From Spirochaetaceae bacterium (GTDB taxonomy: Bacteria > Spirochaetota > Spirochaetia > WTKD01): a stretch of DNA of 64,000 bases. Made by a program: the position numbers and the translations under genes. Positions 734 to 37,521 of this stretch are shown here, one piece after another; positions within the stretch are counted from its first letter, which is position 1; each line of letters starts with the position of its first letter. The DNA lies in the NCBI GenBank assembly GCA_011524535.1, contig WTKD01000001.1, forward strand, positions 1-64,000. Direction: 5' to 3'. The notes below the pieces were generated by a model. It had not been told where the DNA came from. It saw only the letters and a list, made by a program, of their open reading frames with translations, and ran no database searches.

Positions 734-1555
734 TTAATAAAGATCGTACTCACGAAGAATTTCCTCAGCATCGTAGTCATACCAATTTTGATAAGCATCG
801 TGGTCATACAAATATTCATCAGTACCGTAGTAATGCCCATCTTCATCAGCATCGTAGTCATAATAGTCATTCACATTTTCGTTAAGAATGTAGCGATACA
901 TGGGTAAATAATTCCCGTCTGCAATATCTTCATGCGTTCCTATGTAGTAAAATTTGTCATTATGTATAAAAAAATATCGAATTTGGGATCCTTTAAAGTC
1001 GTATATTTCTTCTTTTTCAGTTTCTTTAAGGGTTCTTGAGTATTTGATATTCTCCAAAACAATCTGCAGTATCGTATGCTCAGTTGTAGGTATGTTTACA
1101 AATTTTTTAGAAACTATATCGGCAATTATTCCTTGTTCAATGTCCGAATTTTGATATCCTATAATTAATACATCTTTATCCAATAAAATTGACAACAGCT
1201 GGATTCCTTTAACGTCTTCCCCTTGATACATTTCGCTTGTTTGATTGTATTGTATGTTTTTTGTAATAGCTTCATAGAATCCATGGTAGTGGCTAAAACT
1301 GCTGCCCATTTCAGAGTCCTCAATATATCCACTATATAATTTCGTCGGAAGTGGCAAACTAATGTTTGTAAGAGAAGTTATTGTGGATTGTTCCTCTGAT
1401 ATTGTGGTGGTTTCTGTGGTGGTTCCTGCAAACTCACATGATGTAGCAACAAACAGAACAAAAAGAATCAACACGTAAGCTGGTTTACGTTTTTGTGTAG
1501 TTTTTACACTTTCTTTATTTGTAATAACTTCTTTTTTTATGCATATAAACGTCAT
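734..1555 (-). CDS. lipoprotein with Tyr/Asp-rich C-terminal tail
   Basis: I do not recognise the family. The start at 1555 is chosen because AAGGAG lies 9-10 nt upstream of that ATG; the longer open frame reaching 1675 has no such site. The 273-residue product has a basic N-terminus, a hydrophobic segment and a lipobox ending TSC, so it is predicted to be lipidated and anchored to a membrane. A Thr/Ser-rich linker follows. The last 45 or so residues are strikingly rich in Tyr, Asp and Glu with the motif YDYDA seen twice, giving a strongly acidic tail that could bind cations. It stands alone, followed on its own strand by the GC-rich double hairpin. Lipoprotein call is fairly sure; function is unknown. 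Confidence 0.7.
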   Translation of the reverse strand: MTFICIKKEVITNKESVKTTQKRKPAYVLILFVLFVATSCEFAGTTTETTTISEEQSTITSLTNISLPLPTKLYSGYIEDSEMGSSFSHYHGFYEAITKNIQYNQTSEMYQGEDVKGIQLLSILLDKDVLIIGYQNSDIEQGIIADIVSKKFVNIPTTEHTILQIVLENIKYSRTLKETEKEEIYDFKGSQIRYFFIHNDKFYYIGTHEDIADGNYLPMYRYILNENVNDYYDYDADEDGHYYGTDEYLYDHDAYQNWYDYDAEEILREYDLY

Positions 1556-1842
1556 AATTATTTTCTCCTTATACATACAAATATTATTATTATTTATAAA
1601 AATAGTAAACAATATACTGTACAATATCACAGATATGTTCTCAGTATGGAAAAAGATAGTTTTTTGCGGTATCAACGTTTAAGTTGTTACTTACAAACAG
1701 TAGTTCTCTTACTTTATTTCTTGAAAATTCGTATTGTAAGTTTCAACTTAATTTTACGTTGCACGTACGATACATATATCAAATTAAGCACTATTTGATA
1801 ATCACTGGTTTGTCGTCTTCCTATCTCATTGCAGAAATATAC

Positions 1843-1880
1843 ACAGATCCTACATCGGAAGAACTTGGGATCTGTTTTTT
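1843..1880 (+). terminator. orphan rho-independent terminator
   Basis: ACAGATCC (1843-1850) pairs perfectly with GGATCTGT (1868-1875), followed by six T at 1875-1880. It faces plus, yet no credible plus-strand gene lies upstream; the flanking lipoprotein gene is on the minus strand. It may end a small RNA transcribed from about 1680-1840 or be left from a lost gene. Confidence 0.6.
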
Positions 1881-2188
1881 AAGTTTTTGCATAGTCTCAA
1901 TAAAAGCCGTTGTATTTTCTTCTTCTTAGACTCACAGTCTACTATCGATTTTCAATGATCGAAAACGGAGGACCCGAAACAAATTTACGAGTGTGATGAT
2001 CCCGGTTTGCTTTTATGATTTCTTGATACTTTTCTTTATTCAAAGAAGAAAAAACGTATGATATCCCAACAATTAATTATCCATAGGAACCTGCTTATTT
2101 TTCAATAATATGTATATTTTTTTATATAAAATGTATAAAAAAGTACTTAAATATCTATAGACTCCATAAAGTCATCAACGCCGGAAAT

Positions 2189-2202
2189 CATAACATGTTA
2201 TG
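2189..2202. promoter_or_regulatory. 14-bp perfect palindrome, candidate operator
   Basis: CATAACATGTTATG is its own reverse complement. It lies about 80 bp before the sigma-factor start codon and could bind a dimeric regulator. No -35/-10 pair of good quality could be placed beside it. Confidence 0.4.
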
Positions 2203-2281
2203 TTAAAATAAGTTAGAAGAGAAAAGCGTGTTGTCGGTTGATAGGTGAAAATGGCATGTATTTTGCATTACTGTTTTTGTG

Positions 2282-3070
2282 ATGTCTATACGAAATAAAA
2301 GACAAAAAAGAACAGTAATGTTAGAGAATGGGTCTTTTTATCATAGAGAAGCTGCAAGCGCTACGTACCTCGAAGCGGAAGAGGAACAAGAGCTTGTACG
2401 TTCTGCTAACAGAGGTTCATCCGAAGACAGAAATCGACTCATAAGTTCGCATGTTCGATTGGTTGTGAAAATCGCCAGACAATATTCTCAAAGAGTCAAT
2501 TGTTCTCTAGATGATCTCGTTCAAGAAGGAAGCCTCGGGCTGATACAGGCGGCTGATAAATACGATGTAAAGCGTAGCAATCGGTTTTCTACCTATGCTA
2601 TTTGGTGGATACGCCATTTTATACAACGATACATAGACAAAAATTATTCCATTATTCGACTTCCATACCGCAAAGTTCAGAAAATGCGCAAGGAGTGGTC
2701 ATTAGAGGGTGGAAGAGAAAACCATCAGACTGTGGAAGGAAGTGAAAAAAAGGATTCTTGGAAATTTGACCATATTGTAGTCTCAACCAGCGATGAGACC
2801 ATTTTCAATGTTTTGTGTGATGATGAAGACTGTGTCGAAGAAAAATTATTTCGACAGGAATTATGTGATCTCGAGAAAGACATGCTGGATGTTTTGAATG
2901 AGGAAGAGTTTACAGTGATCTATAGTCGTTTCTACACGGCGGAAAAAAAAGTTTCGGTTCGTCTGATTTCAGAGAAATTGCGCATACCCGAGCACAGTGT
3001 GCGAAGGCGTATAAAACGGGCATTCGAAAAAATGAAATCACGCGCCATGGATCTTGGATTTATGCAATAA
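2282..3070 (+). CDS. alternative sigma-70 family factor (RpoS/RpoH-like)
   Basis: RNA polymerase sigma factor of the group 2/3 type. Residues ~25-60 match region 1.2 (EEEQELV, then SSHVRLVVKIARQY). Region 2 is well kept, with DLVQEGSLGLIQA for core binding and RFSTYAIWWIRHFI for -10 recognition. RLPYR follows. Region 3 is poorly conserved and shortened, and region 4 (VSVRLISEKLRI to RRRIKRAFEKM) is divergent. Total length is about 262 residues, close to spirochaetal RpoS-like factors. The start is uncertain: GTG at 2279 is immediately followed by ATG at 2282, and ATG at 2318 is also possible; none has a good Shine-Dalgarno site. It stands 40 bp upstream of the YibQ-like gene. Family call is sure; which regulon it drives is not. 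Confidence 0.88.
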   Translation: MSIRNKRQKRTVMLENGSFYHREAASATYLEAEEEQELVRSANRGSSEDRNRLISSHVRLVVKIARQYSQRVNCSLDDLVQEGSLGLIQAADKYDVKRSNRFSTYAIWWIRHFIQRYIDKNYSIIRLPYRKVQKMRKEWSLEGGRENHQTVEGSEKKDSWKFDHIVVSTSDETIFNVLCDDEDCVEEKLFRQELCDLEKDMLDVLNEEEFTVIYSRFYTAEKKVSVRLISEKLRIPEHSVRRRIKRAFEKMKSRAMDLGFMQ

Positions 3071-3109
3071 GATTTGCATGTTTTCTCCGATATTTTTAGA
3101 GTGAGGAAT

Positions 3110-34339: not shown

Positions 34340-35277
34340 TTAGACTCAAATACTTCTTGCTTCTTTTTCTGGTATTTGGAATTGTTTCCTGCGGGGGGAC
34401 AGTGATTTTATTCGATCCGGATATGGCTATTGCCTATCCTGGTAATCTGCGTCGAGATACGCGAAAAATATTGTCAGAGATAAATTCTGAGGTAGCTGAT
34501 TTCCATTATCTCACACATAGTATTGTCGTTTTGGGTGAATCTGAGTCTTTCTTTTATCCGCTACAAATCCTGCGTTTATTTCATGCAGATAATATTGTTT
34601 ATTTTTCATCTTCTTACAGAGAACTTGCAACTCAATTTAAAGCATTTCAACCTACGCAGGAACAACAGCACGTACATGTTCAATCAGTACAAATGTATGA
34701 ACAAACCGGAGGAATTCCAAACCCACAGATGGTGGCAACGCAAGATATAACAGACGGATTTCCGGAAGACCCCGATGCAACTCCTGGACAACAGGCTCTT
34801 CTTCTCGATCGGCGTGCAGCAATATCTTCAATGATAGATTACATCTTAAAGGATATTGAAAGTAGAGAAGAATTATCATCTCCGTATATTGCCTTATTCC
34901 GGATAGAAGAAGGCTTATCCGCGGATGAGTTCGCTATTATGAATGATGAATTGCTATCTAAAGGATCACTGATAATCCGGGATTACGTGTATCGTGACAA
35001 GGAGACCATAGATGTGAGGTTGAATCGGGATGTGAGTTCACACCGAGATACACCATATCTTTTGTTTTTTGTGGGCCCATATGTTAGAGATTTGGGAGTC
35101 AATATCAATGACCTCGAAGGAAAAATATTTATCGAAAGTTACTTCATTACCAATGCTGCCGCCTTAGGTGCGGACATGAGTATTGGATTTACGTTACGGG
35201 ATATAATAAGTACAGCGGTTAACAGAGAAATCGATCTAGACGTTGGTTATGTTCCTGCGATTTTTTACCGATACTAA
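34336..35277 (+). CDS. lipoprotein of unknown function upstream of flaA
   Basis: Signal MIRLKYFLLLFLVFGIV and lipobox ending VSCGG predict a lipoprotein of 313 residues. The mature part has mixed alpha/beta character with a Gln-rich, probably flexible stretch near residues 95-150. No domain is recognised. It overlaps the membrane protein gene by 4 bp and lies 43 bp before the flaA-type gene, so it may belong to the filament sheath or its export. Confidence 0.68.
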   Translation: MIRLKYFLLLFLVFGIVSCGGTVILFDPDMAIAYPGNLRRDTRKILSEINSEVADFHYLTHSIVVLGESESFFYPLQILRLFHADNIVYFSSSYRELATQFKAFQPTQEQQHVHVQSVQMYEQTGGIPNPQMVATQDITDGFPEDPDATPGQQALLLDRRAAISSMIDYILKDIESREELSSPYIALFRIEEGLSADEFAIMNDELLSKGSLIIRDYVYRDKETIDVRLNRDVSSHRDTPYLLFFVGPYVRDLGVNINDLEGKIFIESYFITNAAALGADMSIGFTLRDIISTAVNREIDLDVGYVPAIFYRY

Positions 35278-35320
35278 GCTCGAGACGTTAGGTCGAGTAT
35301 ACTCGGTACGAGGAGCAGGT

Positions 35321-36058
35321 ATGAACCGAATAATTATAATTTTGATATTTTTAGTTTCAATTGGAACGATTTTTTCTGAAGACGTGCTACGATACAGGTC
35401 TCTCACGTTGGATACTTTCGATAACCCCAATCAGTCAATAGGTTGGGAAGTACGAGGAAGTAAAAACATCGCAGAGGATTATCCAAGAGTTTCATTCATA
35501 AACACCTGGCCAGCAGCATTGCACGGATACAATAGCGATCGTGAACGCGATTTACGCGCATTAGGGGTCGAAGCTGCGTTTACACAACGTGGTTATAATT
35601 ATCTTGAAATTTTCCCCACTGAACGATTGGCTGATGGTAGCTTTATAAATCGGTCGATAGAATTGCCCGGAGATACTATAGGCTTGTCAGTATGGGCGTG
35701 GGGATCAAATTATGATTTTTCGTTAGAGGTCCACATTAGGGATTATCGTGGCGTAGTTCATCAAGTTCCTTTCGGGAAAATTAACTATTACGGGTGGAGG
35801 CAACTGACGGCGACCATTCCGACAGCGGTTCCACGCAGAAGCCCTTATCAGTTTAATTTCGCTGATTTGTACGTAGACAAAATTGTATTGTGGACAGAGC
35901 CACAGGAGCCAGTATCTGGTTTCTTTTTATATCTTGATGATCTACAAGTTCTTTCGCGCACAAACACGGAAGTTGTAGACGGTGGAGAATTGTTCATTCC
36001 AGAGATACGAGACAGTCGTTGGGAAGAATCTAGTAACGGTACAGAAGAAACCAATTAA
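35321..36058 (+). CDS. flaA: flagellar filament outer layer protein, FlaA-like
   Basis: ATG 35321 is preceded by AGGAG; the frame is open from 35243 but that part lacks a signal. The 245-residue product has a signal peptide (RIIIILIFLVSIGTIFSEDV) and FlaA-type features: TLDTFDNP, SIGWEVRGSKN, GLSVWAWGSNYDFSLEVHIR, GKINYYGWRQLTATIP and a C-terminal FFLYLDDLQVLS. FlaA forms the sheath around the FlaB core in the periplasm. A second, more canonical FlaA follows 11 bp downstream. Confidence 0.88.
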   Translation: MNRIIIILIFLVSIGTIFSEDVLRYRSLTLDTFDNPNQSIGWEVRGSKNIAEDYPRVSFINTWPAALHGYNSDRERDLRALGVEAAFTQRGYNYLEIFPTERLADGSFINRSIELPGDTIGLSVWAWGSNYDFSLEVHIRDYRGVVHQVPFGKINYYGWRQLTATIPTAVPRRSPYQFNFADLYVDKIVLWTEPQEPVSGFFLYLDDLQVLSRTNTEVVDGGELFIPEIRDSRWEESSNGTEETN

Positions 36059-36069
36059 GGGAGAAAAAA

Positions 36070-36780
36070 ATGAAAATACTAATTTCTAGTTTATTGATTA
36101 GCTGCATCGCATTTGCGAGCTTTGGTCAGGTGGACATAGATCCTGCCTTGGTTGACCAAGGAAATTTCGCTCCAAATCTTCAGGAAATATCTATCGACAA
36201 ATTCGAAGATGCTGGATTTTGGCGAACGTTGATTTCTATTGATGATGGTGTTATTCAGCATCGTTCGTTGCGAGGTACACCTGATGCAAAGGATCCTCTT
36301 ATTCTTGAGACTGCTCTTGCTCCTCAGAGTTCTGCTGATGATTATGTACTCGGTGTTAGAACCGACTTTTTCAGAAGGACATATTCTACGCTCTCATTGG
36401 TACCTGCTCGTCCTATTCCTATTCCAGGTATTGCGAGTAGTTTATCCATATGGGTTGCTGGTAGAAACATTCCATACGAATTAAAAATTTTACTGCGAGA
36501 TTCTATCGGTCAAATAAGCGTTTTGAGTTTTGGAAAACTTCAATTTTTGGGTTGGAAGAAACTTGAAACCATCATACCACCAGACATACAGGATGTTCGT
36601 TACACAGGTCTCGGGAGAGGATTGGATTCAAATACCGGATTAGAAGTGATAGGACTCCAGATTGAATCTTCTTTGATGGAAACCTATGGTAGATACTATG
36701 TCTATTTTGATGATCTTCGTGCTGTGACAGATCTTACGGTCTTGTCCCGTGATCCAGATGACATGATTGATAATTGGTAA
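36070..36780 (+). CDS. flaA: flagellar filament outer layer protein FlaA
   Basis: Sheath protein of the periplasmic flagellum. The 236 residues include a signal peptide (LISSLLISCIAFASFGQ), ISIDKFEDAGFWRTLISIDD, SLSIWVAGRNIPYELKILLR, GKLQFLGWKKLETIIP and YYVYFDDLRAVTDL, and a short acidic tail ending DDMIDNW. GGGAG lies upstream of the ATG. The pattern of Trp/Gly blocks is shared with the preceding gene, so they are paralogues in one operon. A stem-loop at 36820-36851 lies downstream. Confidence 0.92.
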   Translation: MKILISSLLISCIAFASFGQVDIDPALVDQGNFAPNLQEISIDKFEDAGFWRTLISIDDGVIQHRSLRGTPDAKDPLILETALAPQSSADDYVLGVRTDFFRRTYSTLSLVPARPIPIPGIASSLSIWVAGRNIPYELKILLRDSIGQISVLSFGKLQFLGWKKLETIIPPDIQDVRYTGLGRGLDSNTGLEVIGLQIESSLMETYGRYYVYFDDLRAVTDLTVLSRDPDDMIDNW

Positions 36781-36819: not shown

Positions 36820-36851
36820 CACGGGTAGATCTGATGAAAGATTTACCCGTG
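36820..36851. terminator. stem-loop after flaA
   Basis: CACGGGTA (36820-36827) pairs perfectly with TACCCGTG (36844-36851); an inner TCT/AGA adds three pairs. No T-run follows, so it may stabilise the flaA mRNA end rather than terminate by the intrinsic mechanism. Confidence 0.5.
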
Positions 36852-36961: not shown

Positions 36962-37521
36962 ATGAATAGCACAATAAAGACACACGAATCACACGAAGAC
37001 TTACAAAAATTTTTAGCATTAGTTGGTGCCTCTGCGCTCTTTTTGTCCAATATTGAATATCTCATTCCAAAACCGTACCCTTTTTTTCGGTTGGGGCTTT
37101 CCAATATACCTCTAATAATTCTGATCTCTTATGCACGCAAACGGGATTTATGGGTCGTTCTATTCTTAAAAGTGTTGGGGCAAGCGGTTATACATGGAAC
37201 ATTGTTGTCATATGTGTTTTTTTTTCTGTTGGTGGAAACGTTGCGGGGTTGTTTTCGATGGTTTTACTACGCCCCTTGTTACGAACTCGTAAGATTTCAT
37301 TTGTTGGATTGAGTCTTTTTGGCAGTTTGGCAAGCAATGCCATGCAGATGCTGCTTGCGATTGTATTCGTGTATGGCAACGGGGGGAGGTATTTGTTGTT
37401 TCCATTTTTTGTTGTTGGAACGATTGGTGGAATCTTTGTTGGATATTTAGTTGAACGACACCATAGCGTTTTTGATTGGGCTAAAAACTATTACAGAGCA
37501 GCAATATCGAATTTGTCATGA
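36962..37521 (+). pseudogene. Gx transporter family gene, frameshifted at a T9 run
   Basis: Two overlapping frames together make one protein of the Gx transporter/HepS component I type. The first half (from 36962) has LIPKPYPFFRLGLSNIPLII and LKVLGQAVIHGTLLSYVFFF. The second half, in another frame from about 37226, continues SVGGNVAGLFSMVLLRPLL and ASNAMQMLLAIVFVYG to the stop at 37521. The break coincides with nine T at 37217-37225; a tenth T would join the two frames into ~186 residues, normal for the family. The protein is hydrophobic with about five segments. It may be phase-variable, rescued by slippage, a sequencing error or a true pseudogene. The next gene overlaps its stop. Confidence 0.75.

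Follow-up and report, generated by a model that had tools for sequence, protein, structure and literature searches.

A putative FAD-exporter gene split in two frames at a nine-T tract in a spirochaete, with slippage as its possible rescue

The split gene and its neighbours

Analysis of a 64,000-nucleotide window (the whole stretch of Spirochaetaceae DNA that was analysed) identified a gene of the PF07456 family interrupted at a run of nine T, hereafter T9, where the reading frame switches by −1 (Table 1). According to the Pfam profile search, the upstream ORF matched PF07456 at positions 3–70 (57.4 bits; E value, 2.3e-15). The −1 frame is open back to 37057, and its portion from an ATG at 37150 to 37521 (123 aa) matched positions 52–145 (43.1 bits; E value, 5.7e-11). 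Each half scores above the family cut-off of 30 bits, and the two together match the profile over its full length, in two frames. PF07456 is the EetB family, and EetB of Listeria was shown to export FAD, as an ECF-type substrate subunit, for flavinylation by ApbE (PMC9973259). The split gene is thus designated eetB here and is, from its profile matches, a putative FAD-exporter substrate subunit. No second PF07456 gene was found in the same genome.

The junction was set with 90 homologues (30, then 60 more) from 148 genomes of the same class, all outside the order to which the window belongs. The last F of a VFFF motif ends the upstream homology, and the downstream homology begins one column further on with an S that 89 of the 90 homologues share; the alignment showed no column lost or gained between them. 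The last 28 residues of the upstream ORF are an out-of-frame reading, and the two pieces that belong to the family, of 88 and 98 residues, add up to the family length of 186. A sequence-only reading of the window had described a Gx-type transporter gene broken across T37217–37225, in which one more T would restore a protein of about 186 residues. These results agree with it on the structure of the gene: the Gx transporter it named is PF07456, the frame switch falls between adjacent columns F and S, and the joined protein has the proposed length. The reading had also allowed for homologues without one of the halves, a case that did not arise, as the homologues span both. The layout resembles that of genes expressed by transcriptional slippage: two frames overlap, both are needed for the family protein, and an A/T run of nine or more lies where they join.

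Table 1. Positions of the features in and around the split gene, and of the second split gene of the assembly.
Feature	Position	Strand	Basis
Two tandem FlaA-family genes	35243..36780		
Stem with loop, between FlaA-like gene and eetB start	36820..36851		
Upstream ORF, 116 aa; residues 1–88 = N-terminal half of EetB	36962..37312	+	PF07456 match
T9 tract, eetB frame switches by −1	37217..37225	+	Sequence; junction F|S set by 90 homologues
EetB C-terminal half, −1 frame, 98 codons + stop	37225..37521	+	PF07456 match
Partner membrane subunit (putative ECF-T / FmnA-like), 212 aa	37518..38156	+	BLASTP; one CbiQ match
Split Dsr1-type gene	G000:C7 around 92.6–95.7 kb; L072:3–1601 + 1552–3099; tract L072:1577–1586		Profile matches

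The ATG of the next gene, referred to as the partner, overlaps the stop of the −1 frame as ATGA, in line with the earlier proposal that the downstream membrane gene is coupled to the stop of the restored frame. In BLASTP comparisons, the partner resembled the C-terminal domain of the homologues in which the two proteins are fused (32/90) and the adjacent next gene in most of the unfused ones, where an overlap of the ATGA type is also frequent. Judged from these comparisons, fusion or adjacency of the partner is deeply conserved, and the partner is intact here. CbiQ, an ECF-T family, was matched weakly by one of the 18 aligned partner members, and no solved structure matching the partner profile was found. 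Its position, its fusions and the one weak CbiQ match suggest that the partner is a putative ECF-T subunit. A recognisable Shine-Dalgarno motif was absent before 37518, but this is not evidence of translational coupling, because such motifs precede only 21 of the 54 ORFs in the window.

Two tandem genes of the FlaA family (flagellar filament outer layer) lie immediately upstream of eetB. Between the FlaA-like gene and the eetB start, a 12-bp stem with an 8-base loop was observed (CACGGGTAGATC...GATTTACCCGTG, including one G-T pair), with no T run after it and no match in Rfam.

Homologues, flavin pathway and the second half of the gene

In all 90 class relatives, unlike here, the PF07456 gene runs in a single open reading frame across the matching point. 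Six more regions with partial, two-piece or no match were checked and revealed no frame switch: three were contig ends, one carried an in-frame insertion, one had an in-frame shortened C-terminal part, and one had no match. The longest tract at the same spot was T8 in one homologue and T7 in another, with at most six in the others. The split arrangement, which would be expected in relatives if it were programmed, was found in 0 of the 90 homologues in the class, a sample with none from the order of the window.

These data bear on programmed −1 ribosomal frameshifting at T_TTT_TTT, which would yield the full-length protein. The zero-frame TTT TTT TTT gives a perfect X XXY YYZ heptamer, and a −1 shift is indeed what would be required, but the arrangement is not conserved in the 90 relatives, and inspection by eye detected no Shine-Dalgarno-like stimulator upstream of the tract. 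No downstream stem-loop was better than shuffles (z 0.94 and −0.07 for RNA structure beside the tract, of which slippage needs none). Programmed frameshifting is considered highly improbable.

The rest of the flavin pathway appears complete. The genome encodes one ApbE (374 aa; E value, 6e-81) with an N-terminus that looks lipoprotein-like by eye, and an operon of RnfD/NqrB-, RnfG/NqrC-, NqrD-, NqrE-, and NqrF-like genes, all of them open. An FMN_bind match (E value, 2.9e-15) lies inside this Rnf/Nqr-type operon, and two of its genes contain, by eye, DALTAAT and DAITGAT, which we take to be the usual flavin-attachment motifs. ApbE and the Rnf/Nqr-type operon are candidate customers for exported FAD. 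In the class sample, a PF07456 gene was present in 121 of the 126 genomes with ApbE, compared with 6 of the 22 without it, and this class-wide co-occurrence supports the role of EetB as an exporter in spirochaetes. The definition of EetB-type FAD exporters dates from as recently as 2023. Loss of eetB would be unusual in this genome, because the customers are kept and nearly every ApbE genome sampled has the gene; three of the five ApbE genomes without PF07456 are incomplete or contaminated assemblies.

The second half of the gene was also compared with the homologues. It scored 67 bits against the homologue profile and contained no stop or second indel in its 98 codons. The ratio of downstream to upstream bits was 0.70, a value as low in 5 of the 90 homologues, and the corresponding identity ratio was 0.66, as low in 2 of the 90. 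A P kept in 87/90 homologues and an S kept in 83/90 have been lost. When compared with the 30 best-scoring homologues, the downstream half ranked lowest of 31 and was taken as a candidate conservation outlier, which was rejected with 90 homologues. Decay is not claimed, because the downstream half falls within the range of the 90; its low family likeness could reflect relaxed selection. Our reading is that the second half either still functions or lost its function recently, with a slight sign of relaxed selection.

Recent loss is a further reading: a slip in replication would have turned eetB into a young pseudogene, perhaps because extracellular FAD comes from the host, with decay still ahead. 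The genome is small (1.42 Mb), a reduced-genome family of the same class (f19) is without both PF07456 and ApbE, and the downstream half of eetB resembles the family slightly less than the upstream half does and lacks the conserved P and S. However, eetB is otherwise undamaged, the partner gene is still open, as are ApbE and the Rnf/Nqr operon, and the scarcity of ApbE genomes without PF07456 in the class also argues against loss. Recent loss is thus regarded as unlikely, though it retains some weight.

Long A/T tracts in the window and the genome

The genome (G000, in which the window is C9:1–64000) consists of 14 contigs with a G + C content of about 41%. Four A/T runs of nine were observed in the window, compared with 5.5–10 expected from low- and high-order Markov models. 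A T9 run by itself is not unusual; what counts is that the frame switches exactly there. Genome-wide, 50 distinct A/T tracts of nine or more were identified, of which 40 lie inside one open frame and 7 match no long frame. Two of the remainder split genes, namely eetB and a second gene described below, and one (L082) is a normal gene border. The latter was examined as a third split gene and rejected, as its two ORFs are separate genes, the first recombinase-like and the second deoC by eye. Most long tracts in this assembly are in frame, and the eetB tract is therefore an exception.

The frequencies of A/T runs were also determined. Runs of length 7, 8, and 9 gave 1947, 459, and 54 matches genome-wide, with successive ratios of 0.24 and 0.12, and the 54 matches of length nine compare with about 120 expected from a first-order model of one window scaled to the genome. 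In codon resampling within the window alone, the length-nine runs were not significant. A/T runs of eight and of nine are progressively scarcer than the shorter runs predict, which fits avoidance. Avoidance of runs of nine has been taken to indicate that runs of this length are prone to slippage in the genome concerned; some AT-rich genomes, such as that of Borrelia burgdorferi, do not have it (Baranov et al., 2005; PMC1088944). Replication slippage can also produce tract avoidance.

The other gene split at a long tract encodes a defence sirtuin of the Dsr1 type and is divided into two frames at an A10 tract (Table 1). Its N-terminal part matched positions 59–444 of a Dsr1 profile, and the C-terminal part, in the other frame, matched positions 652–1156 of the second Dsr1 profile and 954–1124 of the first.

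A sequencing or assembly error would mean that the real tract has another length and that eetB is intact like any ordinary gene. Errors of this kind classically arise in homopolymers, the same assembly splits the Dsr1 gene at A10, and an intact pathway with a partner gene overlapping the shifted frame is what would be expected for a whole gene. Against this, 40 of the 50 A/T tracts of at least nine in the same assembly lie in one open frame. A listing of frame switches in the 64-kb window, read without a gene-by-gene homology test, yielded numerous overlaps, natural or spurious, among which no other split was recognised. An error is accordingly a real but rather unlikely explanation, to which we give somewhat more weight than to recent loss.

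The sequence-only reading had named phase variation or transcriptional slippage as the mechanism, and either is plausible at T9. In phase variation, changes in tract length would switch FAD export and the coupled translation of the subunit, and the sequenced clone would have been caught in the off state. A mononucleotide tract within a coding frame is consistent with this, and the other gene split at a tract, Dsr1, is a defence gene for which on and off states are plausible. Nine T's, however, are short for a contingency locus, long tracts are absent at this spot from the 90 homologues (T8 being the maximum), and core metabolic functions are not the usual targets. We consider phase variation improbable.

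Slippage at T9 and comparison with known systems

The explanation to which we give the most weight, tentatively and at somewhat less than an even chance, is a real T9 frameshift in the only eetB gene that is leaky through slippage. The only eetB gene is split while the rest of its pathway looks intact, so some protein may still be made by copying slips. A real −1 phase error in T9 would interrupt eetB, and the gene would still work at a reduced level. RNA polymerase would slip on the nine T's, and possibly the ribosome would as well at T_TTT_TTT. Most products would be the 116-aa truncated form and a minority full-length EetB, and the same minority of ribosomes would reach the ATGA junction and feed translation of the partner ECF-T. 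Some full-length protein, obtained through slippage at T9, would thus make the frameshift tolerable. That bacterial transcription slips efficiently on nine A or T in vivo is established (reviewed in PMC5009743). For eetB, we infer that slippage occurs at the tract, how efficient it would be and whether the partner is affected.

A stronger form of leaky slippage would make T9 a maintained control device that sets the amounts of full-length EetB and, through ATGA, of the partner ECF-T; this is doubtful, on a par with phase variation. If true, such a device would throttle FAD export and flavinylation of the Rnf/Nqr pump in a spirochaete. With this locus, one can ask in a natural setting whether a needed gene of a reduced genome is kept alive by slippage. 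The locus also serves as a warning that annotation alone is insufficient to call such genes pseudogenes or absent.

In gene content, the locus resembles the Listeria EetB–FmnA system (PMC9973259) in its PF07456 match and the adjoining ECF-T-like gene, and EetB/PF07456 systems in general in that ApbE and Rnf/Nqr-type flavoprotein subunits occur in the genome. It differs in that eetB is split at T9 in two frames, whereas the 90 relatives have one. As for the arrangement, mxiE of Shigella likewise consists of two overlapping ORFs, which slippage at a U run joins (PMC1088944; PMC5009743). In Shigella spa13–spa32, the extended frame runs into the start of the next gene, which depends on slippage for its expression (PMC5009743), and the ATGA overlap described here is alike. 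The extended form of spa13 accounts for 25–30% of the product (PMC5009743). Slippage was measured for the Shigella genes, which belong to secretion systems, whereas we infer it here for a transporter subunit.

Homopolymer frameshifts in otherwise intact genes have been reported in Blochmannia, with rescue by slippage proposed (PMC3017870). The present case is similar to Blochmannia and Buchnera in that a single indel lies in a long A/T tract of a reduced genome, with the rest of the gene in frame. In contrast, the G + C content here is about 41%, and the 50 tracts of at least nine found genome-wide compare with 114–153 in the coding regions alone of Blochmannia, which has a smaller genome (PMC3017870). 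Citrobacter rodentium tssM1 is, like eetB, a gene interrupted beside a homopolymer, in that case A11 (PMC4256274). Transcriptional frameshifting rescues tssM1 and gives two products, while rescue of eetB is presumed; the A tract of tssM1 is longer than T9, and both of its products were demonstrated to be needed (PMC4256274).
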